Assembly (NCBI RefSeq): GCF_001663815.1
Contig: NZ_CP016027.1
Span: 496,001-560,000, forward strand
Direction: 5' to 3'
Origin: Halothiobacillus diazotrophicus
GTDB taxonomy: Bacteria; Pseudomonadota; Gammaproteobacteria; Halothiobacillales; Halothiobacillaceae
Length of the DNA: 64,000 bases
Part shown: one piece after another, positions 3,114 to 37,761 of the stretch
How positions within the stretch are numbered: the stretch's first letter is position 1
Layout: each line of letters begins with the position of its first letter
Program-made: the position numbers and the translations under genes
The notes under the pieces: model-generated
What the model saw: the letters and a program-made list of their open reading frames with translations, nothing else
What the model was told of the DNA's origin: nothing
Databases searched by the model: none

Positions 3114-3472
3114 TGGTGGAGGTGGGGGGAATTGAACCCCCGTCCGCAAACCCTACGCTTTCGGTACTACATGTTTTTCCTGTTAACTGTTTTAGACGCC
3201 AGCTACCCAACAGGCAGGGAAAACCGACGGCGAGCCCAGTGAGTTTTTAGTCAATCCACGCTGGGCGCGCTTCATGACGATCTTGTGAGAGTCGACGCCT
3301 GGAACCTGAACGCACAAGCACGGCTTCAGTCAGACGGCACCCTACTGGTTATTAAGCAGCGAGTGCGTAGTTGTCGTCGTTGGCAACTAAATTTTTTGCA
3401 GATTTTTACGAGGCTCTACCCCTCGACATGCACCTAGAGTTTCGTGACTCGCGTCGAAGCCATGTCACCCCC
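3114..3472 (-). ncRNA. ssrA: tmRNA (ssrA)
   Basis: Transfer-messenger RNA for rescue of stalled ribosomes. The minus-strand 5' end GGGGGTG pairs with the acceptor strand CACCTCC before ACCA at the 3' end, and a T-arm like sequence (GGTTCAATTCC) lies just inside. The internal tag frame (3384 down to 3355, then TAA TAA) reads ANDDNYALAA, one residue from the E. coli tag ANDENYALAA. The total length of 359 nucleotides is normal for one-piece tmRNA. The tag, both tRNA-like ends and the downstream terminator make this certain. Confidence 0.97.
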
Positions 3473-3588: not shown

Positions 3589-4170
3589 TTAACCCGGTGG
3601 GGGAAAGCGGACGCCAGCCCTGCCGGGTGATCCCGCGCTCGTAGCGGTAGTGTGTGATGAACGAGGATCAGCCCTGAAAGCAGGTTGCTTCCCGTTTAGG
3701 ATCTGCGTTTCTGCTGCCTGGGACAGTGCCGTGACCCAGGGGGCCAACACATTGTTAGGAAGGGAAGATGTGTCCGTCTGGGGGGCATGGGGCGATTCGA
3801 TTGCGACGATATGGACCGTGGGGCCTTTGATCCGAACGGACGGGTCATCGCCAATGACCGCATCCAGTAACTGGAGTGTGGCATGCAGGTCGATGCCGTG
3901 CGAGGAAGGCGAGGCGGTCCGATTCGGCAAATCCTTTGGCGTCATTACCCGTACCGAACCGGGTGCTCCCGTTCCCAGCATGATATCGAGGAAGATCAGG
4001 GTGTCGCTTGGGCTCAGGGGATGCATGAAGAGGCCGGTGGGTTGATTCAGTTGATCGACGACGATCGACGGGTCGTCGGCGAATCGGGCGCGCAGGCGAT
4101 CCGCCGCCAGCCAGCCGATCTGATCCCAGCCAAGGGGGGATCCCAGACCGAAGACATATAGCCTGCTCAT
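3589..4170 (-). CDS. [NiFe]-hydrogenase maturation protease (HybD/HycI family)
   Basis: Endopeptidase that removes the C-terminal extension of the hydrogenase large subunit once the Ni-Fe site is assembled. The start is typical (VFGLGSPLGWDQIG). By comparison with E. coli HybD, the three nickel-sensing residues correspond to Asp in WDQIG (Glu16 in HybD), Asp in IFLDIML (Asp62) and His in SSHGIDL (His93). At 193 residues it is somewhat longer than HybD; the last 25 or so residues are a Ser/Thr/Pro-rich tail. Its ATG overlaps the stop of the large subunit gene (ATGA at 4170-4167), so it is the last gene of the hydrogenase operon and very probably acts on that subunit. Confidence 0.85.
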   Translation of the reverse strand: MSRLYVFGLGSPLGWDQIGWLAADRLRARFADDPSIVVDQLNQPTGLFMHPLSPSDTLIFLDIMLGTGAPGSVRVMTPKDLPNRTASPSSHGIDLHATLQLLDAVIGDDPSVRIKGPTVHIVAIESPHAPQTDTSSLPNNVLAPWVTALSQAAETQILNGKQPAFRADPRSSHTTATSAGSPGRAGVRFPPPG

Positions 4171-5483
4171 GATCGCTCCGCGCGAAAATCCAGAAAGTGC
4201 GTGGCGCAGGAGATGCAGGGGTCGTAATTCCGGACGACCATTTCGCCGTGGAGCCGCAGCGCGTCATCCGTCTGGTTCAGTCCGAAGCGCGTCAGGGTGG
4301 TCTTGAGGTCTTCCTCCATGCGCGCCTGATTCTGGCTGGTGGGCGGAACAATTCGTGCCGATTTGACCCACCCCTGTTCATCCAGTTCATAGCGGTGCCA
4401 GAGGATGCCCCTGGGCGCCTCCGTACAGCCGAATCCGATACCGGGCAGGGGTGATGGTTCGATGAAGGGCGTGCTACCGGCGTCGTAGTCTTCCGTGAGC
4501 CTCAAGGCTTCACTCAAGGCGTAATGGATCTCGATGGCGCGCGCCAGAATGCTGTGAAACATGTTCCGACTCGGAAATGCGATGCCCGTGGTCGCGATTA
4601 TGGCGCGCAGATCGGCAGGCAGCTGATCAAGATTGTTGTTGATGCGCGCGAGCGGACCGACCAGATAGGGACGATCATCCAGCAGGGCATGCAATGCGGT
4701 GGAATGCGGCACCTGGAATTCCCGGAAGTGTCGTTCGTAGTCGTCGATGCCGATGTCCAGCCCCTGATCCGAGATGATACGGCCACGCTCGATGGCGTAG
4801 TCGTCATGATGACGTAGGCTGACACACACAAACTCCTGGTCGTCTACGGGTATCGGTAGTGTCGCCACCCACTCGATCAACCCCGATGCGGCCTGTAGTC
4901 CGTCCTGCAGCTTTTCGCGCAGCTCGCTGATCGCGGTGGCGGTGGGGGCACGGAAGAATCCCCCTGGCCGGACGCCCACCGGATGGACGGAGCGGCCACC
5001 AAAGGTGCGGATGATCTCGTTGCCGATGCCCTGAAGATGAAGCCCTCGACGCACTTCGGCCGGGAAGCGCTTTGCCATCTCGGGCGCGCTGTCGAAACCG
5101 AGAAAATCCGGTGCGGCCAGCAGATGGATGTGCAGGCTGTGGCTTTGAATCCATTCGCCGCAATACATGACGCGCCGCATCGCCTGAACCCAGGGACTGG
5201 GCGTCAATTGGAAAATGGACTCGATGGCGGCGACGGCGCTCATCTGGTAGGCCACGGGACAGATACCGCAGATCCGTGCCACGGTATCGATGACATCCTG
5301 AGCCGGGCGACCTTCGAGGAGCTTTTCGAACAGCCGCGGCGGTTCGAAGATCCGCAATTTCAGATCGTCGATCTGCCCGTTCCGAATCCGGATATCCAGG
5401 GCGCCTTCCCCCTCGACACGTGCCAGAACGGGCACATGAATGTCTCCGGTTCTCAAGTTATTCCCGGTTCTTGAATCGCTCAT
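4167..5483 (-). CDS. hydA: Group 3b [NiFe]-hydrogenase large (alpha) subunit
   Basis: Catalytic subunit holding the Ni-Fe(CN)2CO centre. About 438 residues. The first nickel motif RICGICPVAY lies near residue 70, and the second, DPCISCATH, near the C-terminus. The nine residues after that His are the expected peptide cut off by the maturation protease. The four Cys ligands are all present. The start ATG at 5483 overlaps the stop of the small subunit gene (ATGA) and has GGAG upstream; a longer frame exists but would run into the preceding gene. The length and the hydB-hydG-hydD-hydA order match cytoplasmic bidirectional NADP(H)-linked (sulf)hydrogenases. Confidence 0.93.
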   Translation of the reverse strand: MSDSRTGNNLRTGDIHVPVLARVEGEGALDIRIRNGQIDDLKLRIFEPPRLFEKLLEGRPAQDVIDTVARICGICPVAYQMSAVAAIESIFQLTPSPWVQAMRRVMYCGEWIQSHSLHIHLLAAPDFLGFDSAPEMAKRFPAEVRRGLHLQGIGNEIIRTFGGRSVHPVGVRPGGFFRAPTATAISELREKLQDGLQAASGLIEWVATLPIPVDDQEFVCVSLRHHDDYAIERGRIISDQGLDIGIDDYERHFREFQVPHSTALHALLDDRPYLVGPLARINNNLDQLPADLRAIIATTGIAFPSRNMFHSILARAIEIHYALSEALRLTEDYDAGSTPFIEPSPLPGIGFGCTEAPRGILWHRYELDEQGWVKSARIVPPTSQNQARMEEDLKTTLTRFGLNQTDDALRLHGEMVVRNYDPCISCATHFLDFRAERS

Positions 5484-6304
5484 TGACCTGCTCCTGACAC
5501 CGGTTGCGTTTCCGATGCCGCCGCGTCGAACCACGCTTTTCCCGCATCAGCGAATGGCGACGCCTGACTATTGATGAAGAGAAAACGCTGACCAATTTCC
5601 CGGGGTGTCATGCCGGTTGCCGCGAGATGCTGGCTGAAGGCGGAGACATTGGCTTGGGCAGCGGGGCCATAGCAGGCGTAGCAGTCCCGTTGCATGCTGG
5701 GGCAGAGTGCACCGCAGCCGGTTTGGGTGACAGGACCCATGCAGGGTTTGCCCTGAGTCACCATGACGCACACGAGATTCTGGCGTTTGCAGGACATGCA
5801 GACGGCACTGTGGTCGATTCGTGGCAAGTGGCCGGCCAGAAGCGACTTGGTGACGCCGAGCACCTGTGCGCCGTTGACGGGGCAGCCCCAGAGCTCCAGA
5901 TCGACCTTGATTACGGCCGCGATGGGCTTCGATTCAGGCAGGAGATCGAGAAACTCGGGCTGGGCATAGATGCCAGCCATCCATTCGCCGGCATCGTGGA
6001 GATTGCGTAGTGCCTGAATGCCGCCTGCCGTCGCGCAGGCGCCGATGGTGACGACGTAACGGCTGTTTTCCCGAATCTTCGCCAGGCGCTCCGCATCCTT
6101 CGAGGTGGCGATGCTGCCCTCGACGAAGGCGATGTCCACGACGGCGTCCTCGTCGATAGGCCCTGCTTCGGCAAAATGCAGGATGTCCACGGTTTCCGCG
6201 AGGACCAGGAGGGGCTCGCCGAGATTCAGGAACGCCAGCTGGCAACCGTCACAGGAGCTGAACTTGTGTACGGCCACGCGGGGGCGGGATGATGCACCGT
6301 GCAT
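5480..6304 (-). CDS. hydD: Group 3b [NiFe]-hydrogenase small (delta) subunit
   Basis: Iron-sulfur electron-transfer subunit that pairs with the large subunit. 274 residues with no twin-arginine signal, so cytoplasmic. The proximal-cluster Cys occur in SSCDGCQLAF, IGACATAGG and LWGCPVNG. A Cys-rich C-terminal part (CMSC, LVC, KPCMG, TGCGALCP, CYACYG) supplies further clusters. The gene starts 48 bases after hydG and overlaps hydA by ATGA, in line with one transcript. The lack of an export signal and the flavin and ferredoxin-like partners separate it from membrane uptake hydrogenases. Confidence 0.92.
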   Translation of the reverse strand: MHGASSRPRVAVHKFSSCDGCQLAFLNLGEPLLVLAETVDILHFAEAGPIDEDAVVDIAFVEGSIATSKDAERLAKIRENSRYVVTIGACATAGGIQALRNLHDAGEWMAGIYAQPEFLDLLPESKPIAAVIKVDLELWGCPVNGAQVLGVTKSLLAGHLPRIDHSAVCMSCKRQNLVCVMVTQGKPCMGPVTQTGCGALCPSMQRDCYACYGPAAQANVSAFSQHLAATGMTPREIGQRFLFINSQASPFADAGKAWFDAAASETQPVSGAGQ

Positions 6305-6351
6305 ATGGGGTCCTCCGAGTCAGGCGGTGTTGCCAGTGTGGATGAGGTTGT

Positions 6352-7185
6352 TCATACGCCTTTGTGACCCCAGTACGGCGCCAACTCCGCGAAGTTGAAC
6401 ACGGGTCCGTCGCGACAGACGAATTTTGCACCCAGTTGGCAGCGGCCGCAGGAGCCGATGGCACAGTGCATGTTCCGTTCCATGCTCAACCAGATCTGCG
6501 TGTCGGGGACGTTGCGCTGACGCATATCGCGAACGACGGCATTCATCATGCCCTCCGGCCCGCACATGATGACCGAGGTGCGTTGGGGGGCGATGCTCAG
6601 TTGATCGAAGAATTGCGTGACCGGGCCGACCTTGCCCGGCCACAGCGTATCGCCCGTATCCGCCGTCAACCAGACATCAACATCGGGATAGGTACGCCAG
6701 AGTTCGTAGCGTTCGCGCCAGATGAAATCGTGGGCGTGCTTGACGCCCTGGATGATATGAATATGGCCATACCGCGACTGACGTCGCAGGGCATATTCGA
6801 TGAAGGAAACCGAGGGTGCACAGCCCAGGCCGCCGGTCACGACCACGAGATCGGTCCCTTCCGCCGCGTCGATCGGCCAGCCCCGTCCGTAAGGCCCGCG
6901 GAGTCCCAGCCGGTCACCCACCTGCAGCTTGCCCAGATTGTCGGTTACCGATCCGACCTTGCGGATGGTGTGATTGATGACGTGTCGATCTTCGGGATCG
7001 GACACGATGGAAATCGGCACCTCCCCCATGCCGGGCAGATAGAGCATGTTGAATTGACCCGGAACGAAACGGTATTGGGCCTGGCGTGTCGCGTCGGTGA
7101 GACGCAATTGAAGACTGAAGAGATCGGGCGTTTCGTCATGACGCTCGATGACTTCCGCCTCGAAGGGGGTTAGGGCGTAACTCAT
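6352..7185 (-). CDS. hydG: Group 3b hydrogenase FAD/NAD(P)-binding (gamma) subunit
   Basis: Ferredoxin-NADP reductase-type diaphorase subunit, 277 residues. An FAD-binding barrel comes first ([21 protein letters not shown]), then a nucleotide-binding domain with [10 protein letters not shown] and MCGPEGMM. The C-terminus has a [2Fe-2S] motif ([17 protein letters not shown]), as in dihydroorotate dehydrogenase electron-transfer subunits and P. furiosus HydG. It moves electrons between the Fe-S chain and NAD(P)(H). Its start overlaps the hydB stop (ATGA). Choice between NADP and NAD cannot be read from the sequence with confidence. Confidence 0.9.
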
Positions 7186-8315
7186 GACGGAGATCCTCCG
7201 GAGTCAGCGGTGAGGGTGGGCGGGGAACAGACGGCGGCCAGTTCCTCCGTGACATCGATGCCGACCGGGCACCAGGCGATGCAGCGGCCGCATCCCGTGC
7301 AACCGCCACGGCCGAATTGTTCTTCCCAGGTGCCGAACTTGTGGGTCAACCACTGTCGGTAGCGTTGCGGCCGTTCGGCTCGGATCACGATGCCATGGAT
7401 GTAGCTGTGATCGGGGTTGAAGCAGCTCTCCCATTGTCGATCATGGCGGGTTTCCTGGCCGTTCAGGGAGATCTCCTCGACATGGCTCTGGCAGAAGCAG
7501 GTCGGACATACCGCTGTACAATTGCCGCAGGTCAGGCAGCGGTCATTGAGGGTTTGCCAGTGCGGATGGTCGACTGCTCCGACGAGTTTCTCCTGAAGCG
7601 GTCCCGCGGGGAGGCTTCGTCGTTGGTTGTCTGCCGCCTGCTTGATTCCGGTTTCGGCTCTGTCGAGCTGTTCATCATCGGCCGGTCCGATCGATAGCGA
7701 CGCCAGGATCTCACGAGCCTGCCCGGTATGGGCTTCCAGGATAAATCCTTCATCCAGCTCCGAGAGCGAGAGGTCCTGTCCGGTATGCACTTTGGGGCCA
7801 TCGCCGGTGGCCGCGCAGAAGCAGGTATCTGACGAACGCATGCAGTTCACGGCAACCAGAAACAGGCGTTCGCGACGCTGGACATAGTAGGGATCGCTCT
7901 GTGGACCATGCATGAAATGCCGGTCCTGGATGGCGAGTGCCGCGAGGTCACAGGCCCGAATGCCGATGACGGCGGTCTGTGGCATGTCGGCATGCTCCGC
8001 CGAGAATTCGAGCTGTCCGTCAGGCTGGCGGACGCTGCGCCAGAGGGTTTCCCGAGGGACGAAGGTCATGGGCTTGAGCGCCTGAGGGCCGGTGGTCCAA
8101 TCGAAATAGCGATTCGTATCCGATGCATGCAGGCGGTAGCGTCCGGGCGATTGCTCGTCGACGATGCCGATCGGTAATTGCGCGGCGTGGTTCAACGCGT
8201 CGAAGACAATAGCCTGATCGTGGACCTGTGGCCCGACAATGGGATAACCCGCGGCACGGAGTGCCTCGATCAGGTCGTCGAAGCGTTCCCTGGGTAAAAA
8301 CCTGCTTATATACAT
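7182..8315 (-). CDS. hydB: Group 3b hydrogenase 4Fe-4S (beta) subunit
   Basis: Iron-sulfur subunit bridging the diaphorase and the hydrogenase dimer, similar to anaerobic sulfite reductase subunit A. About 377 residues. Two [4Fe-4S] ferredoxin motifs lie in the C-terminal half: [14 protein letters not shown] and [13 protein letters not shown]. Further Cys occur in RACDLAAL and SSDTCFC. I chose the ATG at 8315, preceded by AAGGAAAAGG, over a TTG at 8351 that overlaps the hypE stop. The gap to hypE is about 32 bases. It is the first structural gene; the maturation genes precede it. Confidence 0.9.
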
Positions 8316-8347
8316 CGTGTTGCGACCTTTTCCTTTGTTTTGGGTTG

Positions 8348-9385
8348 TCAACAGATCCTGGGAAGGGGGTCGTTCTCAAGGGGTTGAAGCACGCGTTTAC
8401 CACCCCAGGCGTTGCGGACGACGATCTGATCGTGATCCGGGACGACGACGCCGATACGGCTGGCTTCCTGCCCCTGAGGCAAGGCGCGCCAGCGGCGCAA
8501 GACGTCGTCCACGTCATGAATCGAAACCACCGCAACGACGCGCCCCTCGCAGGCCATGAACAGGGGGTCGTACCCCAGCATGTCACAGGCGCTGCGCACG
8601 GCGGGCCGGATCGGGATTTGCCCCTCGTCAAGCTGAATACCCTGTCCAGTCGCTTCGGCGATTTCATGAAGCACGGTGGCCAGGCCCCCGCGGGTGGGAT
8701 CGCGCATCAGGCGCAAGCCGGGCAGGTCGAGTATGGATTGGGTCAGGGGCAGGACGCTGGCGCTGTCCGAGGCCAGCGAGCCACTCAGTCCGAAGGCCTC
8801 GCGGGCCAGTAGGACGGCGATGCCATGATCCCCAACCGGTCCACTGACCAGAATGGCGTCACCGGCATGAATCCGTTCCGCGCCCAAGAGGAGGCCCCGG
8901 GGTCGGACACCGATGCCGGATACGCCCAGATAGACGCCATCGCATAAGCCCTGGGGCAGCACCTTGGTGTCTCCGGCAACGATGTGCACGTTGTTTGCCC
9001 GCGCGGCTGTGGCCAGACTGCCTACAATGCGGTCCAGCTGCTCGATGGGTAGTCCTTCCTCGAGAAAGGCGTTGATGCTGAGATAGAGCGGGGTCGCGCC
9101 GGACACCGCAAGATCGTTGACCGTGCCATGTACGGCCAGGCTGCCGATATCGCCACCTGGGAAGAACAGAGGTTGTACGGTCACGCCATCACTGGCAAAG
9201 GCCAGGTCGTGATCCGGAGGGAGTCGATGAGGGAGAATGGCCGCATCGGTGAGTGGCGTGAGCCAGGGATTGCCCAGGTGACGCAGGAAGAGGGATTGGA
9301 TCAGCTCGCGCATCCGACGGCCGCCGTTCCCATGCGCCATGGTGATCCGGGCGACTTCGCCATTTTTCTCGTTCGGATCGGTCAT
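8348..9385 (-). CDS. hypE: Hydrogenase maturation protein HypE (carbamoyl dehydratase)
   Basis: Converts the thiocarbamoylated C-terminal Cys made by HypF into thiocyanate, the source of the CN ligands of the Ni-Fe site. 345 residues of the PurM/SelD-like ATP-binding fold. The diagnostic C-terminus PRIC ends in the modified Cys. Other motifs are AHGNGGRRM near the start, PLFFPGGDIG, GTVNDLAVSGA and DPTRGGLAT. The start overlaps the hypF stop (ATGA). Normal length, nothing missing. Confidence 0.95.
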   Translation of the reverse strand: MTDPNEKNGEVARITMAHGNGGRRMRELIQSLFLRHLGNPWLTPLTDAAILPHRLPPDHDLAFASDGVTVQPLFFPGGDIGSLAVHGTVNDLAVSGATPLYLSINAFLEEGLPIEQLDRIVGSLATAARANNVHIVAGDTKVLPQGLCDGVYLGVSGIGVRPRGLLLGAERIHAGDAILVSGPVGDHGIAVLLAREAFGLSGSLASDSASVLPLTQSILDLPGLRLMRDPTRGGLATVLHEIAEATGQGIQLDEGQIPIRPAVRSACDMLGYDPLFMACEGRVVAVVSIHDVDDVLRRWRALPQGQEASRIGVVVPDHDQIVVRNAWGGKRVLQPLENDPLPRIC

Positions 9386-11778
9386 AGGATACGCCTGCCG
9401 GGATTCGTTTCAGGAACGAGTCCTTCGATGATCTGGCCGAAGCTGATGGCTGCATCGTTAGCGGGGAGTCGCTCGGGGAGCAGGACCTCGATACCGTCTG
9501 CCGCCAGGAGCGTGACTGCTGTTTCGGTGAGCAGACGATTCTGGAACACGCCGCCGCACAGCCCGACGGCCTCGATTGGGCGCGTTTGACGGAGCAGCCT
9601 GACTTGCTTGTGAATCAGATGGGCAAGTGCGTGGTGGAAATCGGCAGCCCGCTCGGCCACCGTTCGTGTTTCGTCCGTCATCATCCGGATCAGCGGGCGC
9701 CAATCGACCCGCAACAGGTCGTCCGAATCCTGTTCTATGGGCAGGTCCACCGGCAGCATCTCTCCGGCGTTGCGCGCCTCGCTACGGTACAACTTCGAGT
9801 CGGTCGTCGCTTCGGTGGCCACCGATTCCAGACGGCTGGGTGCCTGGCTTTCGTGGGTGCTGTTTTCGACCAGTCGCAACAGGGCAGCCGCTGCGTCGAA
9901 GAGCCGGCCTACTGACGAGGTCGGTGGCGAATTCAGCCCCCTTTCGAGCATGGTCTGCAGCAACTGGCGCTCCTCATTCGTCGCCGTTGTCGCACGCCAG
10001 GGCAGTCCGCATGCCCAGGCCAGCGACTGGGCCAGTCGCCAGGGGGACCGGATTGCCGCGTCGCCGCCCGGCATGAGGAACGGCGCAAACGAGGCAACGC
10101 GTCGCCAGGCGCCCGGTCGGCCATAAAACGTTTCGCCGCCCCAGAGCGTGTCATCGGAGCCCAGGCCCGTGCCATCCCAGGTAAATATCAGGGTATCGGT
10201 GTCCACCAGTCCCTTTTCGGCACATAGGGCCGAGGCATGGGCGTGGTGATGCGCGACCGCACGGCATTTGAGTCCAGAGGCCTTGGCCCAGCGGGTGCTG
10301 GCGTAGTCCGGATGACGATCGTGGCAGACCCGACGGGCAGAAATCGCGACCGACGCCGGTAATTCCGTCGTCTGCTGGATAAAGCGTTGTTGCGCGGCAA
10401 ATCCGGAGAGATCGCCCAGCTGCGGCGAGAGAAGAAGTTGATCGCGCCAGGCTAGGCTTGTGGTGTTTCGCTGCTCCGCGCCGACAGCCAGCAGGGGTGT
10501 TTCAATAGTCTGAGGCAGGTCGAAGATGAGGGGCGTAGCACCCCGACCGAGGCGAATGGGGCGCATTCTCCCCGCAATCCGGCGGTAAATGCCGTCCTCG
10601 AGCGGATGCACGATCCGGCGATCATGGTGCAGAAAGCCATCCGCGATCTCGGCAAGTTGGGCTTCGGCGTCCTCGGGGTTGATGATGATCGGTTCGCCGC
10701 TGATGTTGCCGGAGGTCGCGATCAGGGGCCGATCGAGTGCCGACAGCATCAGATGATGGATCGGGGCATAGGGCAGGATCAGTCCGACTTCATGAAGTCC
10801 CGGTGCAATCTGCGCGCTAAGCCGATGGGATGCCTGTTGCTTCGCCTTGCTGCGTAGTAGCACGATGGGCCGCTCTGGCCGGCACAAGGCTTCTGCCTCG
10901 CATTCTGTGAGTTCGGCAAGCTCGTGGACGGCATCCAGTCCGTCCTTGCCATGCCAGGGGACCATGACTGCCAGGGGTTTGTCCGGACGGCGCTTGCGAG
11001 CCCGCAGTGTTGCCACGGCCTGATCCTGGGTGGCGTCGGCCATCAGGTGGTAGCCACCGACACCGCGTACCGCGACGATGCCGCCGTCCCGTAGGCAGTC
11101 GAGCGCCGCAATCAGAGCAGCCTGCGGATTGCGGATGGTGTCACCGGATGTGGAACGGTAATGGATTTGCGGTCCACAGCTTGGGCAGCCAATTCCCTGG
11201 GCATGAAATCGCCGATTGGCCGGATCGCCATATTCGGCGGCACATTCGGCACACATGGGAAAGGCCGCAAGGGTCGTACGTTCTCGATCGTAGGGCAGAC
11301 CCGTCATGATGCTGTATCGCGGCCCGCACGCATTGCAGTGGGTGAAGGCGTACCCGTGACGCCGGTTTTCAGGATTGTTCATCTCGTTGAGACAGGCATC
11401 GCACATGGCCTGATCCAGAGGAAATCGGTGGGCTGCGCTTAAGCGTGCGTTCGTGGGACTGGGCTGGATCGTGAAGTTCGGGGCATGGGTTGGCGGAATT
11501 GCTTGGATGGCGGCAATGGTCGGTTGCGTCGGGGTCGGTGCTTCAGCGGTCAGTCGATGCGCGAATGCCTGCAGTGCGTCAATTGACCCCTCGACTTCGA
11601 TGAAGACGCGTCCATCGGCATTCCAAACGTGGCCCCAGAGGTTGAGCGTGTTGGCCAAGCGGTACACGAAGGGGCGGAAACCGACGCCCTGGACCGGGCC
11701 ATGAAGCTCATAACGTCGTGCCATCTTTCGGGCGGCTGGCGCTTCAGGGTGTTGCAGCGATTCGGTACAGATCGCCAT
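9382..11778 (-). CDS. hypF: Carbamoyltransferase HypF
   Basis: Transfers the carbamoyl group of carbamoyl phosphate to the C-terminal Cys of HypE. About 798 residues. In order: an acylphosphatase domain (GPVQGVGFRPFVYRL), two zinc-finger pairs (MCDACLNEM, HCNACGPRYS; FPMCAECAA, GIGCPSCGP), a YrdC-like domain, and a Kae1-like domain ending with VGLCGGVFQN and NDAAISFGQ. I put the start at 11778, two bases after the hypD stop. An in-frame ATG at 11724, just before the acylphosphatase domain, is an alternative because neither start has a clear ribosome site. Confidence 0.93.
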   Translation of the reverse strand: MAICTESLQHPEAPAARKMARRYELHGPVQGVGFRPFVYRLANTLNLWGHVWNADGRVFIEVEGSIDALQAFAHRLTAEAPTPTQPTIAAIQAIPPTHAPNFTIQPSPTNARLSAAHRFPLDQAMCDACLNEMNNPENRRHGYAFTHCNACGPRYSIMTGLPYDRERTTLAAFPMCAECAAEYGDPANRRFHAQGIGCPSCGPQIHYRSTSGDTIRNPQAALIAALDCLRDGGIVAVRGVGGYHLMADATQDQAVATLRARKRRPDKPLAVMVPWHGKDGLDAVHELAELTECEAEALCRPERPIVLLRSKAKQQASHRLSAQIAPGLHEVGLILPYAPIHHLMLSALDRPLIATSGNISGEPIIINPEDAEAQLAEIADGFLHHDRRIVHPLEDGIYRRIAGRMRPIRLGRGATPLIFDLPQTIETPLLAVGAEQRNTTSLAWRDQLLLSPQLGDLSGFAAQQRFIQQTTELPASVAISARRVCHDRHPDYASTRWAKASGLKCRAVAHHHAHASALCAEKGLVDTDTLIFTWDGTGLGSDDTLWGGETFYGRPGAWRRVASFAPFLMPGGDAAIRSPWRLAQSLAWACGLPWRATTATNEERQLLQTMLERGLNSPPTSSVGRLFDAAAALLRLVENSTHESQAPSRLESVATEATTDSKLYRSEARNAGEMLPVDLPIEQDSDDLLRVDWRPLIRMMTDETRTVAERAADFHHALAHLIHKQVRLLRQTRPIEAVGLCGGVFQNRLLTETAVTLLAADGIEVLLPERLPANDAAISFGQIIEGLVPETNPGRRIL

Positions 11779-11780
11779 GG

Positions 11781-12929
11781 TCAGACGGCCAATTTTTGTC
11801 GGTTCGTCGTCGGCGCACCGCTCTGCCACCAGATTCGGCAGGCGCCCTCATCGGATACCATGCAGGGGCCGACCGGATTGTCCGGGTGGCAGCCCGTGCC
11901 GAACAGACGACACGCTGACGGCGTGATGCGTCCAAGCACGACCGCTGCACAGTCGCATCCGGCGGGCATCCCCATTCGCAGGGTGGAATCATCCGAAAAC
12001 GCTTCGGGAAACCGTTCGCGCGCGTCGTGTGCTGCCAGCGCGGGACGCAATGCATAGCCGGAGCTGGTGAAAGTGCCGATACCGCGCCAGGGAGCGTCGA
12101 TCGTATCGAATACCCGATCCATCAGGTGTCGGGCGCGGGCGTTTCCCTCGTCCGTGACGCATTGGGGATAGGCGTTCACGAGTCGGGATTCCCGTGCGAT
12201 GACTTGAGCCAGCGCCGCATGAATCGCCTGCAAGAGCAGCGCCGGCGTGAATCCGGCCACGACCGTGGGCAAGTCATAGTTCTCGGCGATGAAGGCCCAT
12301 TGCCGTGCACCCATCACGGTGGCGACGTGACCGGGTGCGATCAGGGCGTCAAAGCCGGGATCCTCATCCTGAAGCAAATGGTCGATGGCTGGCCAGGTTT
12401 GACGTGCGCTGAGCAGGATCGTGAGATTGCCGGGAAGGTCGGCGCGGGTCAGGAGTGCGGCAAGCGGTGCTGCCGTGGTCTCGAACCCGGCCGCAAAGAA
12501 AACGATCTGCTTGTCCGGATATTGCCTGGCAAGTGCCAGGACATCGGCAGGAGCAGCGATGGGGGCGACATGACCGCCAACGACACGGGCATCCTGAAGC
12601 GAGCGGGGCTTGCCCTTCATGGCGTTGCCCGGAACCCGAACCATGTCGCCGAATGTGGCGAGGATCACGTCCGGTCTCAGGCTGAGCGCTACGGCGGCTT
12701 GAATGTCCGTTTCGGGACAGACGCAGACTGGACAACCGGGGCCGGGAATGAGTTGGAGATAATCCGGCAGTATCTGGCGCAATCCCGCATGGGTAATGGT
12801 GCGTTCGTGCCCGCCGCAGACATTCATGATGCGTAGGCGCGATGTTTTCGGATGAGGGAGTTCCGCGATGCGCGCCAGCCAATAGGCGGGATCGTGTGGA
12901 TGATCGGGTTGGGGCATGTGCTGTGACAT
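11781..12929 (-). CDS. hypD: Hydrogenase Fe(CN)2CO assembly protein HypD
   Basis: Scaffold on which, with HypC, the Fe(CN)2CO unit is built. About 382 residues. Conserved motifs visible: NVCGGHERTITHAGL, PGPGCPVC, FFAAGFETTAAPLA, and a C-terminal [4Fe-4S] region with GCDC, CRLFGTGCHPDNP and VGPCMVS. The start at 12929 lies just after the hypB stop (four bases between). A second ATG at 12917 would lose four residues. Longer frames would intrude into hypB. Confidence 0.94.
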   Translation of the reverse strand: MSQHMPQPDHPHDPAYWLARIAELPHPKTSRLRIMNVCGGHERTITHAGLRQILPDYLQLIPGPGCPVCVCPETDIQAAVALSLRPDVILATFGDMVRVPGNAMKGKPRSLQDARVVGGHVAPIAAPADVLALARQYPDKQIVFFAAGFETTAAPLAALLTRADLPGNLTILLSARQTWPAIDHLLQDEDPGFDALIAPGHVATVMGARQWAFIAENYDLPTVVAGFTPALLLQAIHAALAQVIARESRLVNAYPQCVTDEGNARARHLMDRVFDTIDAPWRGIGTFTSSGYALRPALAAHDARERFPEAFSDDSTLRMGMPAGCDCAAVVLGRITPSACRLFGTGCHPDNPVGPCMVSDEGACRIWWQSGAPTTNRQKLAV

Positions 12930-12933
12930 CGGC

Positions 12934-13743
12934 TCAGGTATGGCTCGCAGCGAGTGGGTTGGCCATGTTTTGGTGCGGCGCGAGTCGAGGTCGCGCACCA
13001 TCCGCCATGGGCTTGAAACCCGGGGTGCGCTGTTTCTTATGTTGGGTATCCAGCCAGTCCAGCCAGGGGGCGATGTCGTTTCGTCGGCTGCTCAAGGTGA
13101 ACACGGGTGCCGGATTTGCCAGTTGTCGAATGTGCTCGGATACTGCCGTGCAGCTGAAATCGTCCAGGACGGCGAGCAGATCGGTCTTGGTGACCAGGAT
13201 GAGATCGCAGGCACGAAACATCACAGGGTACTTCAACGGTTTGTCGTCACCTTCCGGGGTCGACAGCAAGGCGATGTTCAGATGCTGACCGAGATCGAAA
13301 CTCGCCGGGCACACGAGGTTGCCCACGTTTTCAATGAACAGGATGTCGATATCCGCCAGCGACAGTTCGTGAACGGCCCGGTGCACCATATCGGCATCGA
13401 GATGGCAGGCGCTGCCCGTACTGATCTGCACGGCAGGTACGCCCTTGGCTCGAATGCGCGCGGCATCGTTCTCCGTTTCCAGGTCGCCTTCGATCACGGC
13501 AATCCGGTAGTTGGACTTGAGCGCGTCGATGGTGGCCTCGAGCAGACTGGTCTTGCCCGCCCCTGGTGAGGACATCAGATTGATGACGAGAACGCCGGCC
13601 GTATCGAAATGATGGCGATTGTGGCTTGCCGCGCGATCATTGTGTGCCTTGAGTCCTTCCAGCACTTCCACAGTCTGCAGTTGCTGGGTATCTACCGCGT
13701 GGTGGAGGTGATCGGGAATGGCACAGCCGCAGGTTTCGCACAT
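12934..13743 (-). CDS. hypB: Hydrogenase nickel incorporation GTPase HypB
   Basis: GTPase that delivers Ni to the hydrogenase large subunit with HypA. 269 residues. The N-terminal Ni site CETCGC follows the first Met. The P-loop is SSPGAGKTS, the G-domain metal site is GSACHLD, the GTP base motif is TKTD. There is only a small His cluster (DHLHH), not a long His-rich stretch, so little Ni storage is expected. The C-terminus carries about 30 extra low-complexity residues. The start ATG at 13743 follows hypA by 27 bases. Confidence 0.95.
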   Translation of the reverse strand: MCETCGCAIPDHLHHAVDTQQLQTVEVLEGLKAHNDRAASHNRHHFDTAGVLVINLMSSPGAGKTSLLEATIDALKSNYRIAVIEGDLETENDAARIRAKGVPAVQISTGSACHLDADMVHRAVHELSLADIDILFIENVGNLVCPASFDLGQHLNIALLSTPEGDDKPLKYPVMFRACDLILVTKTDLLAVLDDFSCTAVSEHIRQLANPAPVFTLSSRRNDIAPWLDWLDTQHKKQRTPGFKPMADGARPRLAPHQNMANPLAASHT

Positions 13744-20850: not shown

Positions 20851-20926
20851 TGGTGCCGGCAAGAGGAGTCGAACCCCCGACCTTCGCATTACGAATGCGC
20901 TGCTCTACCAACTGAGCTATGCCGGC
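20851..20926 (-). tRNA. tRNA-Thr (anticodon CGU)
   Basis: Minus-strand cloverleaf of 76 bases with encoded CCA. Acceptor GCCGGCA pairs with TGCCGGC. The D-arm contains GCTCAGTTGGTAGAGC. The anticodon loop TTCGTAA gives CGT, reading ACG. The T-arm contains GGTTCGACTCC. Discriminator A. It lies downstream of the thaumatin-like gene and is followed by a terminator. Confidence 0.95.
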
Positions 20927-20998: not shown

Positions 20999-23575
20999 TC
21001 AGTTGAACGTGTCCGACGTGTTGGAAATACGAATGGTGTAGTTCTGGTTGTTGCTGCCGTCCTGGATCAGATCTTTCTCGCAGGTGAAGGTTGAGGACAT
21101 GTCGTCAAAGGGGTAGGTGTAACAGGTCGGGCAGGCCTGTTTGAGCCAGGTGATGGTCGGCAGGACATCTTTAACCCAAGCGGGGCCTTGGGTCGTGTAA
21201 GTCACGGCGGGGGTTGTGATGCCGGCCCAGTTCGTACCGCCGCAGGCCATGACGGCCGGCTGGCCCGTCGGGGCCGGATCGGTATAGGCACTGAAGCTGT
21301 TGTTGATGCAGAGCTGAAGATCGCTGACGGCAATACTGGATTGGCCGTTGAATGGCGGGCTGATGGCATTCTGTGTCGTGAAATCGAACGGCGCCTGATT
21401 CAGATATTGCGTGTTCTGATTGCCGTTCCAGCCCCAGATTTGATCTGCCGTGGCCCAGGAAACGAAGTTGCCACAGACACGTTCGGCAGCGGCAAAGGTG
21501 AATTGGCCGCTTAGGACCTTGCTCTTGTTCCAGCCACAGACCGGGCCACTGCTTCCCGTTGTGGACGTACAGATCGACTGCGTGGTGCAAGGGGTCGGTG
21601 TTGGCGCGGTGCCCGGGTCCACGATGGCGAAATAGGAGCTGGGGCTGTCTGACACCGCGGTTGTCTGGCCCGGTGGGAAACTGGCCGTGGTCGGTGCGAA
21701 GGCCCAACTGCTGTTCGGCAGCGTCGCCGAAACACCCATGGGTGGAACGCGTTCGCCCGGTGTACCGCAAGCATAGTTCTTGGCAGTCGAAACGGGATCC
21801 GTCGGACCGAACGCGAGGCCATAGTTCGCGCCATTGATGATCGAGACGTCGTAATAGTCGACGGTATTGTGCTGATAGGTCACTTCTGCCAACGAATTGG
21901 CCGCATAGGCCGGGCCGGTGCCGGGTGTCTCGATGCTAGCCGGGCAGTTGCCGCCGGGGCATTGCTGTACGTAGTAGTTGCCGGACCACTGGATCTGTTG
22001 CGGTCCCGTGGTGATTCCCGACCATTGCGGGATGAACAGGGTGGTCGATGCGCCGGGCTGACCGGCGGGCGGGAGGATGCCCGTGCCGTTGGCGAAGGCG
22101 GGTTTGTCCCAGAAGCACATATAGGGCGTCTTGCCTTTCGCGACGCCGGCACCGCCCTGTACGCAGGTCGAACCGATTGGGCAGGCGTTCTTGCCGTTCG
22201 AGGTCGGTCCGCAATACGACTGTGCGCCTGCCTTGGTTCGTGCCGGGTTGGTCGGGTCCACGCCCGGGGCCACGGCATTGGGGGCGGTATAGGCATTGGC
22301 GGAGCCTGCATTGACGCCAATGGCGACCGTATCCGTCGAATCGTTGGCGAATGTGATGGTTCTACCCGTGGTCAATGCACTGTTGTCCATCAACTTCAGG
22401 TTGACCGTCTTTGGAAAGTTGGGCATCGCCAGAAGCAGTCCCACCTGATTGTTGGATTGGGACGGAGGAACCAGGGTGACGGCCACGGAAAGCGAGGCAT
22501 CCAGACCAGCCGCTGTGCCTTTAAGTGGCAGCAGACCATAGCCGCAGGATGTGACGGAACTTGCGTAGGAAGCGGGGCTGGTATTGTCCAGCGCCAAGGC
22601 ACAGGTCACCGATGGCATTGTCTGCATGGATGACGGACTGTTTGAACCGTCGGGATAGGCGTAGAAGACCAGCGCGGATGGATCCTGACTGGTAACGGTC
22701 ACCCAGTACGCGGATTGCGCCAGGGTGTCGTCTTTCAGGTACACGAACAGCGGGGCCTTCATGCCCAGATAGATCTGGCCGGAACCGTTTTGCGAGGCAA
22801 CGTGGATCGTGCCGGGCGATTGGTCGGGATTGCCATTCCAGGTGATGGTGACGTTATCCTGCGGACCGAAGGGGGCGTTGACACCGGCGACCCAGCTGCC
22901 GGTTGGCTGGATGGTCGTGGTGAAGCTTTTCTTCGAGGTGACCAGCGTTGCATCAATGGTTCCGCTGAGCGTGCAGGTCGGTGCATCGGTGGTCAGGGCG
23001 CACTGCTGAACACCGCCGTTGGCGTAGGAGATGCCCGGGACCGGATTCATCAGAACGGTCAGCGGGTTGTCGTTGGGGATCTTCTTGCTGGTTGTACCGG
23101 TGGCCGGGGTCAGCTGGACCGTGATGGAGAAGGGATAGCCGATGCTGGCGCCGGAATAGAAGGACTGCGTTGCCGACGTGACGGAAATCGTGCCATAGGG
23201 GTTCGTGGGCGGGGTGACCGACGTGGCTACCTGACTGCGGGCATACCCGTCGGCCTCGGCCAGCAGCACGGTCGATCCGGCCTGTTTGCCGAAGACGGTC
23301 ACCGTGCACGGGTCCGCGCCCGACGACAGCACGCAGCTGTTCGGGGCGACGTATGCGATCGTGGGATCCGCCACGCTCAGGGTGATTTTTCGATTGATCC
23401 CCCCATTGTTGCCGGACAGTGTGACCGGAACGGTTCGTGCTTCGCCGGCGCGTACTTCAACGCTATCTGAGCCGATCTGAATCGTACCCGTGGAATTCGA
23501 CGTACCGCTACCCTGGCAGCCGGTGAGGAAGATTACTGCCGTCACCAGCAGTGCGCGCGTCATTGCTCCAGTCAT
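20999..23575 (-). CDS. Large lipoprotein with Ig-like repeats and a thaumatin-like domain
   Basis: 858-residue surface or periplasmic lipoprotein. The signal peptide ends in the lipobox FLTGC (Cys near residue 20). Residues about 30-370 form at least three beta-rich segments that look Ig-like, each opening with a G-T-I-x-V/I strand (GTIQIGSD, GTISVTSA, GTIHVASQ). From about residue 403 I see a thaumatin-family domain: a TITFANDSTDTVAI strand at its start, GGNCPAS, SLAEVTY, DYYDVSIINGANYGL, and the Cys-rich C-terminal CPTCYTYPFDDMSSTFTC. Many Cys pairs agree with an exported disulfide-bonded fold. Thaumatin-like proteins in eukaryotes are defence proteins, some binding or cutting beta-glucan; the bacterial role is unknown. 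The preceding gene is a DUF455 protein. Confidence 0.8.
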   Translation of the reverse strand: MTGAMTRALLVTAVIFLTGCQGSGTSNSTGTIQIGSDSVEVRAGEARTVPVTLSGNNGGINRKITLSVADPTIAYVAPNSCVLSSGADPCTVTVFGKQAGSTVLLAEADGYARSQVATSVTPPTNPYGTISVTSATQSFYSGASIGYPFSITVQLTPATGTTSKKIPNDNPLTVLMNPVPGISYANGGVQQCALTTDAPTCTLSGTIDATLVTSKKSFTTTIQPTGSWVAGVNAPFGPQDNVTITWNGNPDQSPGTIHVASQNGSGQIYLGMKAPLFVYLKDDTLAQSAYWVTVTSQDPSALVFYAYPDGSNSPSSMQTMPSVTCALALDNTSPASYASSVTSCGYGLLPLKGTAAGLDASLSVAVTLVPPSQSNNQVGLLLAMPNFPKTVNLKLMDNSALTTGRTITFANDSTDTVAIGVNAGSANAYTAPNAVAPGVDPTNPARTKAGAQSYCGPTSNGKNACPIGSTCVQGGAGVAKGKTPYMCFWDKPAFANGTGILPPAGQPGASTTLFIPQWSGITTGPQQIQWSGNYYVQQCPGGNCPASIETPGTGPAYAANSLAEVTYQHNTVDYYDVSIINGANYGLAFGPTDPVSTAKNYACGTPGERVPPMGVSATLPNSSWAFAPTTASFPPGQTTAVSDSPSSYFAIVDPGTAPTPTPCTTQSICTSTTGSSGPVCGWNKSKVLSGQFTFAAAERVCGNFVSWATADQIWGWNGNQNTQYLNQAPFDFTTQNAISPPFNGQSSIAVSDLQLCINNSFSAYTDPAPTGQPAVMACGGTNWAGITTPAVTYTTQGPAWVKDVLPTITWLKQACPTCYTYPFDDMSSTFTCEKDLIQDGSNNQNYTIRISNTSDTFN

Positions 23576-23737: not shown

Positions 23738-24589
23738 TCAGGTCAGTCGTGCCAGGGTTTCCGCTTCCATCGCTTTCAGATCCGCCATTTCCTCGGGTGA
23801 AAAGCCGGCGGCCAGACGCCCCGGCTCGTCGTAGGGACCGCGAATGCGCCCCTGCATGTATTCGTTCAGAAGATCGCGGAACGTGGTACGCGGGTCCACG
23901 CCGCGGGCCTCGGCACAATGCCGGAACCATCGGGTACCGATTTCCACGTGTCCGATTTCATCGCGGTAAATGACGTCGAGGATGGCAACGAGCGCCGTGT
24001 CGCCGGCGGCTTGCAACTTTTCAGATATGGCCGGCGTGACGTCCAATCCTCGGGCCTCGAGGACACGCGGGACGAGGGCCATGCGCACCATGACGTCGTG
24101 ATCCGTGGCACATACGGTCTCCCACAGGCTGTTGTGGGCGGGGAAATCGCCATAGGCGCAGCCGTGGACAGCGAGGTAGTCGGCCAGAAGCAGAAAGTGA
24201 CGACCTTCCTCCGCAGCCACCTGCAGCCAGTCCCGGTAGTAGCCCGGTGGCATGTCGTCGAAGCGATAGACGGCATCCAGCGCAATATTGATCGCGTTGA
24301 ACTCAATATGGGCAAAGGCATGCGCCATGGCATTTCGGCCAGCCTGGGTGTGCGTGATGCGTCGGGGGAGGTCTCGGGGCGGGACGAGTTCCGGGCGAGC
24401 CGGACGGCCGGGATCGGGAATGTGTTGCACCGGTTCGGTTCGAAGCGCGATTTGACCCTGGTGAAAGTCTGCCAATCCACATTCCCGATACAACAGCCCG
24501 GCTTCCGTCGCCTTGGCGAACGGATCGGTCATCATGAGCAGATCGCGGGCACGATCGCGAACATAACGAGGTATGGCGTCTTCCATCAT
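23738..24589 (-). CDS. DUF455 ferritin-like protein
   Basis: About 283 residues, DUF455 family, a ferritin-like four-helix protein whose reaction is not established. Likely di-iron ligands appear as Glu and His in AFAHIEFNAINIALDA, EEGRHFLLLADYL and RDEIGHVEIGTRWF, the usual ExxH pattern. The C-terminus (GPYDEPGRLAAGF) is also typical. Start at one of two adjacent ATG (24589 or 24586), 19 bases after the ModE-like gene, so the two probably share a transcript. Confidence 0.85.
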   Translation of the reverse strand: MMEDAIPRYVRDRARDLLMMTDPFAKATEAGLLYRECGLADFHQGQIALRTEPVQHIPDPGRPARPELVPPRDLPRRITHTQAGRNAMAHAFAHIEFNAINIALDAVYRFDDMPPGYYRDWLQVAAEEGRHFLLLADYLAVHGCAYGDFPAHNSLWETVCATDHDVMVRMALVPRVLEARGLDVTPAISEKLQAAGDTALVAILDVIYRDEIGHVEIGTRWFRHCAEARGVDPRTTFRDLLNEYMQGRIRGPYDEPGRLAAGFSPEEMADLKAMEAETLARLT

Positions 24590-24608
24590 CGGATGCGGTT
24601 TGTTCGTT

Positions 24609-24989
24609 TCAGAGAGTGATGGCCTGCGTGCGTTGCGCGACGAAAGCCTGCAGATCACGCTCGAAGGCGCGGTACTGTTCAATGGCGGCCCGGCCGGCTT
24701 CCGTCAGCGTGGCATGCCCGCCGCCAGCGCCGCCGACTTCCTTGGTGACATAGGGCAGGGGGCCGAGCTGATTCACTTCCTCAATGAGGGTCCAGGCACG
24801 CTTATAGGACATGTTCAGGGTTTTGGCCGCCTGGCTGATGGAGCCGAGTTCGTCGATCAATTCCATCAGGCGCACCTTGCCGATCCCGAGATAATTCTGC
24901 TGATCGTCGGCGATCAGCCAGAATCGGGCATGCACTTGGGGGCTGTAGGCGTCGCCCGGCAGGCGGTCTCGGCGGGATTTTTTCGGCAT
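24609..24989 (-). CDS. ModE-type winged-helix regulator without Mo-binding domain
   Basis: 126-residue DNA-binding protein like the N-terminal domain of ModE. The helix-turn-helix lies around LGSISQAAKTLNMSYKRAW, followed by a wing with GGAGGGHATLTEAGR. The C-terminal molybdate-binding (MOP) domains of full ModE are missing. No molybdate transport genes are seen nearby, so metal sensing is uncertain. AAGGA precedes the ATG at 24989. It is divergent from roxA and may regulate the DUF455 operon. Confidence 0.85.
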   Translation of the reverse strand: MPKKSRRDRLPGDAYSPQVHARFWLIADDQQNYLGIGKVRLMELIDELGSISQAAKTLNMSYKRAWTLIEEVNQLGPLPYVTKEVGGAGGGHATLTEAGRAAIEQYRAFERDLQAFVAQRTQAITL

Positions 24990-35634: not shown

Positions 35635-37761
35635 TTGAGCCAGTTCATGCCCATGCCCGCGCTGTCAGGGTCGGACCCTGAAGCCAAGCGGGCTGAGATA
35701 CGCACTTACTATCACCAGACCTCGGACCTGTTCGAACGCCTGTTTGACCTGCTCGCCACGGACGAAGCCTTTTATCTCCGGCCTGAGTCCTTGCGCCATC
35801 CGCATATCTTCTACTTCGGTCATACGGCCGTGTTTTTCGTGAACAAGCTGGTGCTGGCCAAACTCCTGCCCGAGCGGATCGATTCCAAGCTGGAGTCGAT
35901 ATTCGCGGTGGGCGTGGATGAAATGAGCTGGGACGACCTGAACGATGCCCATTACGACTGGCCAACGGTCGAAGCCACGCGCGCCTATCGGCGGAAGGTT
36001 CGCGCGGCCGTCGATACGCTGATTCAGAGCCTGCCCCTGCAACTACCGATCACCTGGGAATCGCCATTCTGGCCCATCCTGATGGGGATCGAGCACGAGC
36101 GCATCCATCTGGAAACCTCTTCGGTGCTGATCCGTCAGACGCCGCTTCACTACCTGGACGCCGAACAGCGCCACCACTGGCCCATCTACCCCGAATCGGG
36201 TTCCGCGCCGATCAACGCGTTGCTGCCCGTCCCCGGCGGCCCGGTGAACCTGGGCAAGCGCGACGATTTCTACGGTTGGGACAACGAGTATGGTCGCCAT
36301 GAGGTCATCATCCCCGATTTCACCGCCAGCCGGTATCTCGTGAGCAATGGCGAGTATCTTGCCTTCGTCGATGATCGCGGCTACGAAACCGACAGCTGGT
36401 GGGACGAGGAGGGGCTTGCCTGGCGGAACTATCGGCGCGCGATGCATCCCGTATTCTGGATCGCGGACAACAACCAGCCGCACGGATTCCGATATCGCGC
36501 GCTGGCCGAGGAAATTCCGTTGCCGCTGGATTGGCCGGTGGACGTGAATCAGTTGGAGGCGGCAGCTTTCTGTCGCTGGCTTTCCGCGAAGAGCGGGATG
36601 CCGGTGCGATTACCCTACGAGGACGAGTGGTATCGTCTGGCCGATGTCGCTGCCGTACCGGATCACGACCAATGGCCGCTTTCTGCGTCTGAGGGATTGC
36701 CCGGTGCCAATATTGCGCTGGCGCATTTTGCTTCGGCCTGTCCCGTCGATCGGTTCGCCCATGGCCCGTTCCATGACGTGGTCGGTAACGTCTGGCAATG
36801 GACCGGCACCCCGATCTATCCCTTCGACGGATTCAAGGTGCATCCCTTGTACGACGACTTCACCACGCCAACCTACGACGGTCGCCACAACCTGATCAAG
36901 GGCGGCTCGTTCATCAGCACGGGTGACGAAGCGCAGTTGTCTGCACGCTACGCATTCCGGCGGCATTTCTTCCAGCATGCCGGTTTCCGCTATGTGCAGA
37001 GCGATTACAGCGAGCATCTGCCCACGGGCGTGTACGAGACGGACAGTCTCGTCAGCCAGTATGCGGAATTCGGTTGGGGGGACCGGTATTTCGGCATCGA
37101 GAATTACCCGGCGGTTTGCGCGCGCAAATGCATTGAAGCCATGGGTGACCGACCCAGGGGGCGCGCGCTTGACGTGGGTTGCGCGACAGGGCGCAGTACC
37201 TTCGAGTTGGCGACGGCTTTCGAAACCGTCACCGGTCTGGACTTCTCCGCCCGATTCATCCGCGTGGCCGAGCAGATGCGTGGAGAAGGGCGAATTCGCT
37301 ATGTCGTGCCGACCGAAGGGGCGCTTGTCGACTTCCGTGAGGTGCCCATCCCGGAAGCGCTGGCGGCTTATGCGGACAGGATCGGTTTCTGGCAGGCCGA
37401 CGCCTGCAACCTCAAGCCGCAGTTCACGGGCTACGATCTGATCTTTGCGGGCAATCTGATCGACCGTCTGTACGATCCCGCCAAATTTCTTCGCGAAGCC
37501 GTGGCACGGCTCAACCCCGGCGGCTTGCTGGTGTTGAGTTCCCCCTATACCTGGCTGGAGGAACATACCCCGAAGGGGCAGTGGCTCGGCGGCTACAAGG
37601 AGGATGGCGAACCCGTCACCACGATGGCCGGCCTCACCGCGTGCCTAACGCCTACCCTGCGGCTCGTCTCGCGTGAGGACGTGCCGTTTGTCATCCGTGA
37701 AACGGCGCGCAAGTTCCAGCACAGCATCGCCGAACTCAGCATCTGGGAAAAGACGCCATGA
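35635..37761 (+). CDS. ovoA: 5-histidylcysteine sulfoxide synthase / methyltransferase OvoA
   Basis: First enzyme of ovothiol A synthesis: an iron enzyme joining Cys to His with O2, fused to a methyltransferase for the last step. 708 residues. The N-terminal DinB-like part supplies iron ligands (His in FGHTAVF, and HERIHLE). The FGE-sulfatase-like middle contains GRHEVIIPDF, VGNVWQWTGTPIYPF and IKGGSFISTG. The C-terminal SAM domain (from about 510) has ALDVGCATGRSTFELA and DLIFAGNLIDRL. I choose the TTG start at 35635 because AGAGAGGG lies at ideal spacing; an ATG at 35647 is too far away. Translationally coupled to the next gene, a C-S lyase. Confidence 0.92.
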   Translation: MSQFMPMPALSGSDPEAKRAEIRTYYHQTSDLFERLFDLLATDEAFYLRPESLRHPHIFYFGHTAVFFVNKLVLAKLLPERIDSKLESIFAVGVDEMSWDDLNDAHYDWPTVEATRAYRRKVRAAVDTLIQSLPLQLPITWESPFWPILMGIEHERIHLETSSVLIRQTPLHYLDAEQRHHWPIYPESGSAPINALLPVPGGPVNLGKRDDFYGWDNEYGRHEVIIPDFTASRYLVSNGEYLAFVDDRGYETDSWWDEEGLAWRNYRRAMHPVFWIADNNQPHGFRYRALAEEIPLPLDWPVDVNQLEAAAFCRWLSAKSGMPVRLPYEDEWYRLADVAAVPDHDQWPLSASEGLPGANIALAHFASACPVDRFAHGPFHDVVGNVWQWTGTPIYPFDGFKVHPLYDDFTTPTYDGRHNLIKGGSFISTGDEAQLSARYAFRRHFFQHAGFRYVQSDYSEHLPTGVYETDSLVSQYAEFGWGDRYFGIENYPAVCARKCIEAMGDRPRGRALDVGCATGRSTFELATAFETVTGLDFSARFIRVAEQMRGEGRIRYVVPTEGALVDFREVPIPEALAAYADRIGFWQADACNLKPQFTGYDLIFAGNLIDRLYDPAKFLREAVARLNPGGLLVLSSPYTWLEEHTPKGQWLGGYKEDGEPVTTMAGLTACLTPTLRLVSREDVPFVIRETARKFQHSIAELSIWEKTP

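Follow-up and report, generated by a model that had tools for sequence, protein, structure and literature searches.

A stretch of 64,000 nucleotides from the genome of Halothiobacillus diazotrophicus (NZ_CP016027.1, positions 496,001 to 560,000; hereafter the window) was found to contain, on the minus strand at positions 20999..23575, an open reading frame (ORF) that starts with ATG and encodes a protein of 858 amino acids. The genome consists of a single contig of 2,908,964 bases. An initial annotation, made from the DNA sequence, had described the product as a lipoprotein in which immunoglobulin-like (Ig-like) repeats are joined to a thaumatin-like domain. A hidden Markov model search supported the membership in the thaumatin family: PF00314 in Pfam matches the protein with an E value of 5.7e-12 and a score of 46.2 bits, which is above the curated cut-off of 27.4 and makes the match more than chance. 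The strongest stretch of this match covers residues 506-598, and a second stretch is also reported. The motifs quoted in the initial annotation were all located in the ORF, with LAEVTY at residues 562-567, DYYDVSI at residues 573-579, and the C-terminal CPTCYTYPFDDMSSTFTC at residues 815-832. Using phmmer, plant thaumatin-like proteins (TLPs) were found in the PDB, the top match being PR-5D (3.5e-9), to which residues 780-833 align. A profile of 11 bacterial domains, the one from the window included, retrieves TLPs from the PDB at 1.4e-18. PF00314 matches all 11 of these aligned domains at E values up to 0.001, a count that is only partly independent because some members had been found with the same model.

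The congener G009 carries a homologue that is 68% identical to the window protein. The large subunit of RuBisCO (CbbL) from G009 is identical to PDB 1svd over 473 residues, an entry that we take to be from Halothiobacillus neapolitanus. Over 853 aligned codons, the two thaumatin genes differ at 24, 17, and 53% of the first, second, and third codon positions, respectively, the pattern of a real, intact reading frame under selection. The identity is 74% in the thaumatin-family head and 61% in the stalk that precedes it.

The protein begins with a hydrophobic N-terminus followed by a lipobox, FLTG-C20, with Gln at the +2 position (residues 1-20, ending at C20; 23516..23575, minus strand, as for all features of the gene given below). 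The lipobox postulated in the initial annotation is therefore present, and the protein is predicted to be a lipoprotein; the pattern used is the one that we take to be PROSITE PS51257. When the first 120 residues were scanned, the lipobox was found in all six members of the branch to which the window protein belongs and in none of the five other relatives, one of which (L038) may be missing its true N-terminus. The stalk was divided, with borders of our own choosing within residues 28-392, into an Ig-like repeat 1 (residues 28-121; 23213..23494), a β-rich repeat 2 (residues 122-250; 22826..23212), and a β-rich repeat 3 (residues 251-392; 22400..22825). All three start with a GTI strand and contain a pair of Cys residues spaced by 9-19 residues. 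Profile comparisons from the six members gave probabilities of 74% for repeats 1 and 3, 34% for repeats 1 and 2, and 7% for repeats 2 and 3, whereas ten column-shuffled controls per pair reached at most 0.67, 0.15, and 1.12%, respectively. The kinship of repeats 1 and 3 is thus supported at the level of sequence, that of repeats 1 and 2 weakly, and that of repeats 2 and 3 poorly.

The structural model of the N-terminal region has a mean pLDDT (predicted local distance difference test) of 49.8 and is sound in repeat 1 only, where blocks of ten residues score 73-89. In fold comparisons, repeat 1 aligned with the Ig domains of the S-layer protein SbsC (Z of 11.9, root-mean-square deviation of 2.9, 94 aligned positions) and with the Big_2 part of the Big_2-CBM56 protein 7quz (Z of 10.8, root-mean-square deviation of 2.8, 84 aligned positions). 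From the model, repeat 1 is firmly assigned as Ig-like and is likely of the Big_2 kind, although the Pfam Big_2 model has no match in the window protein at E values up to 1 and other Ig-like folds score close. A Foldseek search with the N-terminal model listed 50 matches, mostly to antibody and other Ig folds with SbsC at rank 4; their TM-scores by query length are 0.17-0.32, and they were not the basis for the assignment. The proposal of Ig-like repeats accordingly stands for repeat 1, and a set of three is borne out more weakly.

The thaumatin domain with its inserts occupies residues 393-858 (21002..22399). Core block 1 (residues 530-603; 21767..21988) contains E564, D576, and N581, and core block 2 (residues 810-832; 21080..21148) contains D824 and the sequence CPTCYTYPFDD. 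Between them lies a stretch (residues 604-809; 21149..21766) that exceeds the length found in plant TLPs. The LAE and CPxxY blocks are 253 residues apart in the window protein and 93 residues apart in PR-5D, which indicates an insertion of about 160 residues between the core blocks; the spacing is 229-275 in the seven of the 11 aligned proteins, the window protein included, in which both motifs were found. Another insert of about 80 residues precedes core block 1 and contains a stretch with four Cys residues (residues 455-487; 22115..22213). The acidic cleft of TLPs is described by the REDDD residue set (Petre et al., PMC3048497), and three of its five members, E564, D576, and D824, are kept here. 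The Arg is absent, with none found within residues 530-553, and one Asp is replaced by N581. The placement of the five residues on the window protein is in part our assumption.

The domain contains 16 Cys residues, which are not the canonical set of 16, since positions 413, 763, 777, and 851 are occupied by other residues. The corresponding four alignment columns hold Cys in all five relatives that are not lipoproteins and in none of the six lipoproteins; conversely, C818 occurs in all six lipoproteins and in none of the five others. The four absences fit two canonical disulfides that are each missing as a pair, which also supports the alignment. We take these to be disulfides 9-204 and 149-158, with the canonical pairing assumed. 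Because the REDDD set is incomplete, two Cys pairs are absent, and about 160 residues are inserted, the protein is not a plain eukaryotic TLP. The initial annotation had judged the domain close to the eukaryotic signature; the C-terminal block fits that description best, but the missing Arg, N581, the four missing Cys residues, and a core split by inserts do not.

The plant PR-5 proteins (PR-5D, zeamatin, osmotin, and NP24) share with the window protein the core blocks LAE..DYYDVSI and CP..Y.Y..DD..STFTC, and differ from it in having the canonical Cys residues, the full REDDD set, a shorter distance between the blocks, and neither a stalk nor a lipobox. Among bacterial proteins, the profile for LegT (NF045527), named a Dot/Icm effector in NCBIfam, matches three proteins in their thaumatin region, with 49.6 bits for the window protein, 54.4 bits for the Geobacter protein L008, and 64.0 bits for the protein of the congener G007, and covers nearly the whole domain in the latter two. 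The score of the window protein lies far below the equivalog cut-off of 1200 bits, and its lipobox and Ig-like stalk set it apart from LegT. Thaumatin domains of Legionella have been published as eukaryotic motifs (PMC4256840), and legT appears in a table of Legionella substrates (PMC2824747). A title-level search for literature on bacterial thaumatin proteins brought none to our notice beyond Legionella, and a search for thaumatin with Halothiobacillus or with Acidithiobacillus returned nothing on the subject at title level. Bacterial TLPs are therefore already known; what differs here is the form of a lipoprotein with a stalk.

Thaumatin-domain relatives are sparse in bacteria. At E values up to 0.001, PF00314 was found within the family in 5 of 27 genomes, each time with a score above the cut-off, in 7 of 369 genomes of the class sample (six above it), and in 3 of 398 genomes of the phylum sample (two above it); these samples overlap, and the genome of the window is counted in each. 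At the same threshold, seven of the ten genomes from the genus are without a match. None of 14 named control genomes gave a PF00314 match at this threshold. A pattern scan of named genomes, which picks up close relatives only, recovered one true relative, L008 from a metagenome-assembled genome of Geobacter (41%). Another match, L009, was rejected as a false positive, being a 33-residue match within a 209-residue protein that we presume to resemble COQ9. The viral contigs gave 2 and 35 pattern matches with no confirmed relative, and neither PLSDB plasmids and phages nor PHROG gave a match. Four further proteins were excluded from the alignment of 11: those of G121 (L036, an ORF of 159 amino acids), G094 (L039, below the cut-off), G670 (L040), and G419 (L041, below the cut-off). 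The thaumatin gene of G015 runs off the end of its contig and that of G011 ends about 670 bases from one (L031 and L032); perhaps a repeat breaks the assembly at these genes.

In a full-length tree of the six lipoproteins, the Geobacter protein groups with those of the window and G009, and the congener G007 groups with G011 and G015, which belong to another genus. Monophyly of the three proteins from the genus of the window was rejected (p-AU, the p value of the approximately unbiased test, of 0.000115), under a constraint chosen after the core tree described below had been seen. This rejection implies either transfer or an old duplication with loss. The core tree was calculated from 130 columns and 16 rows, the 11 bacterial and five plant proteins. 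One branch sets off the lipoproteins (99/96) and another the plants (96/93); the remaining bacterial proteins also lie on one side of a branch, weakly (81/79). A comparison of bacterial with eukaryotic members had been called for initially, and the lipoproteins do stand apart from the five plant TLPs, but the tree is unrooted and its eukaryotic rows are plant TLPs only, without fungal or animal TLPs. What it argues against is therefore limited to a recent acquisition from plants of the kind sampled. The GC content at third codon positions is 0.749 in the thaumatin gene and spans 0.596-0.777 in six compared genes of the window; the base composition shows no sign of recent foreign origin, and a donor of like composition would fit too.

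The gene is flanked downstream by tRNA-Thr(cgt) (20851..20926, minus strand) and upstream by a DUF455 gene (23738..24682, minus strand), and the same two neighbors flank it in G009. In G005 and G001, DUF455 and tRNA-Thr(cgt) are adjacent and the site is empty. The contig of G002 stops at DUF455, so that the site is not visible there. In G003 and G007, the sequence following DUF455 (L054 and L057) yielded no tRNA and presumably resembles the start of a tmRNA; the tmRNA of the window is located at 3114-3472. In a tree of three neighboring proteins (a JmjC_2 protein, one that we take to be ModE-like, and DUF455), the genome of the window is placed next to G005, and G009 next to G001 and G002; G005, G001, and G002 are all without the gene. 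This history would be explained either by one ancestral gain with losses or by two separate gains at one site. A joint transfer of the end of DUF455 with the gene, considered from the protein identities, was set aside, as the nucleotide identity is about equal for G009 and G005. The DUF455 match in G009 (L029:6381-7276) is spread over two frames that overlap and is well conserved in its later part only, the result of either a frameshift or a sequencing error. The thaumatin lipoprotein gene of G007, which is of the second type, lies about 970 bases from tRNA-Arg (L030:8637-8713), and both types in the genus are thus situated near tRNA genes. Elsewhere in the window, region 4167-13001 contains a gene like that for a NiFe hydrogenase/sulfhydrogenase α subunit (below the model cut-off) together with HypF and HypD (over theirs). 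Region 35635-37761 encodes a protein of the OvoA type, in which the two domains for ovothiol synthesis each score over the cut-off, and the ORFs at 41569-44289 (906 amino acids) and 53795-55858 (687 amino acids) have no NCBIfam match at 1e-15.

The best explanation that we can offer, held at slightly less than even confidence, is that the protein is a lipid-anchored, lectin-like adhesin, probably on the outer surface of the cell. The lipid would anchor it, probably at the external surface of the outer membrane; the three Ig-like domains would hold the thaumatin-family head away from the cell; and the head would bind a glycan or another extracellular ligand and so bring about adhesion. Surface binding is suggested by the architecture, in which an Ig stalk tethers the head, together with the higher conservation of the head. 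By analogy, a glycan would be the likeliest class of ligand because thaumatin folds bind β-glucan: eukaryotic TLPs can do so (PMC3048497), and so do yeast SUN domains, including ScSun4, which lacks REDDD (PMC13251364). Several observations weigh against this explanation. The +2 residue in G009 is Asp, which retains lipoproteins in the inner membrane in Escherichia coli. The folds of the pilus chaperone FimC match repeat 1 nearly as well (Z of 10.2-10.9), and a common fold says nothing of function. The cleft is incomplete, and the thaumatin domain as modeled by AlphaFold2 from two input sequences (the window protein and L008) has a mean pLDDT of 35, so that no binding surface can be drawn. The host, moreover, we take to be probably an autotrophic sulfur oxidizer, for which β-glucan is not an obvious target.

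The thaumatin family is best known from defense proteins of plants, and TLPs have been studied mainly as eukaryotic defense proteins. A comparable role here, in which the head would act on grazers such as amoebae, or on fungi, by harming or repelling them, much as PR-5 proteins of plants act on fungi, would agree with the homology of the domain, its occurrence in the LegT family, and the antifungal activity of 21 of 26 surveyed eukaryotic TLPs (PMC3048497). It is nevertheless unlikely, since the lipobox points to a protein that is tethered and not released, and the cleft with which antifungal activity has been associated keeps only three of its five residues. The state of the cleft also makes an enzymatic role appear less likely. 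A β-1,3-glucanase or other glycoside hydrolase is very improbable, even though GH64 and the TLPs form one superfamily in which, as in fungal SUN domains, a thaumatin-like fold acts on β-1,3-glucan (PMC13251364): Pfam gave no glycoside hydrolase model, GH64 included, and no sushi model at E values up to 1, and the cleft is without its Arg and one of its Asp residues. Attachment through the Cys-rich head to a mineral, to elemental sulfur, or to the organism's own biofilm matrix would suit a sulfur-oxidizing lifestyle, the genus indicated by CbbL, the 16 Cys residues of the head, and the adhesin-like architecture; we regard it as rather doubtful because most genomes of the genus give no PF00314 match at E values up to 0.001, which argues against a general need. 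A structural role in the periplasm or envelope, with no external ligand, would be compatible with the lipobox and the Ig-like domains, the only pointers to location, but is quite unlikely given that the better conserved head suggests a binding task.

The adhesin remains the explanation that we prefer. On a broader and more speculative level, it is conceivable that bacteria own an old thaumatin branch, marked by inserts of its own and by changed disulfides, that some Halothiobacillaceae and one Geobacter display it on lipid-anchored Ig stalks, and that it serves as a swappable surface-binding head passed between phyla. Such a branch bears on the origin of the thaumatin family. As we take the genus to include a laboratory model, a bacterial form that is tethered would make the binding role of this fold accessible to testing outside plants and fungi.
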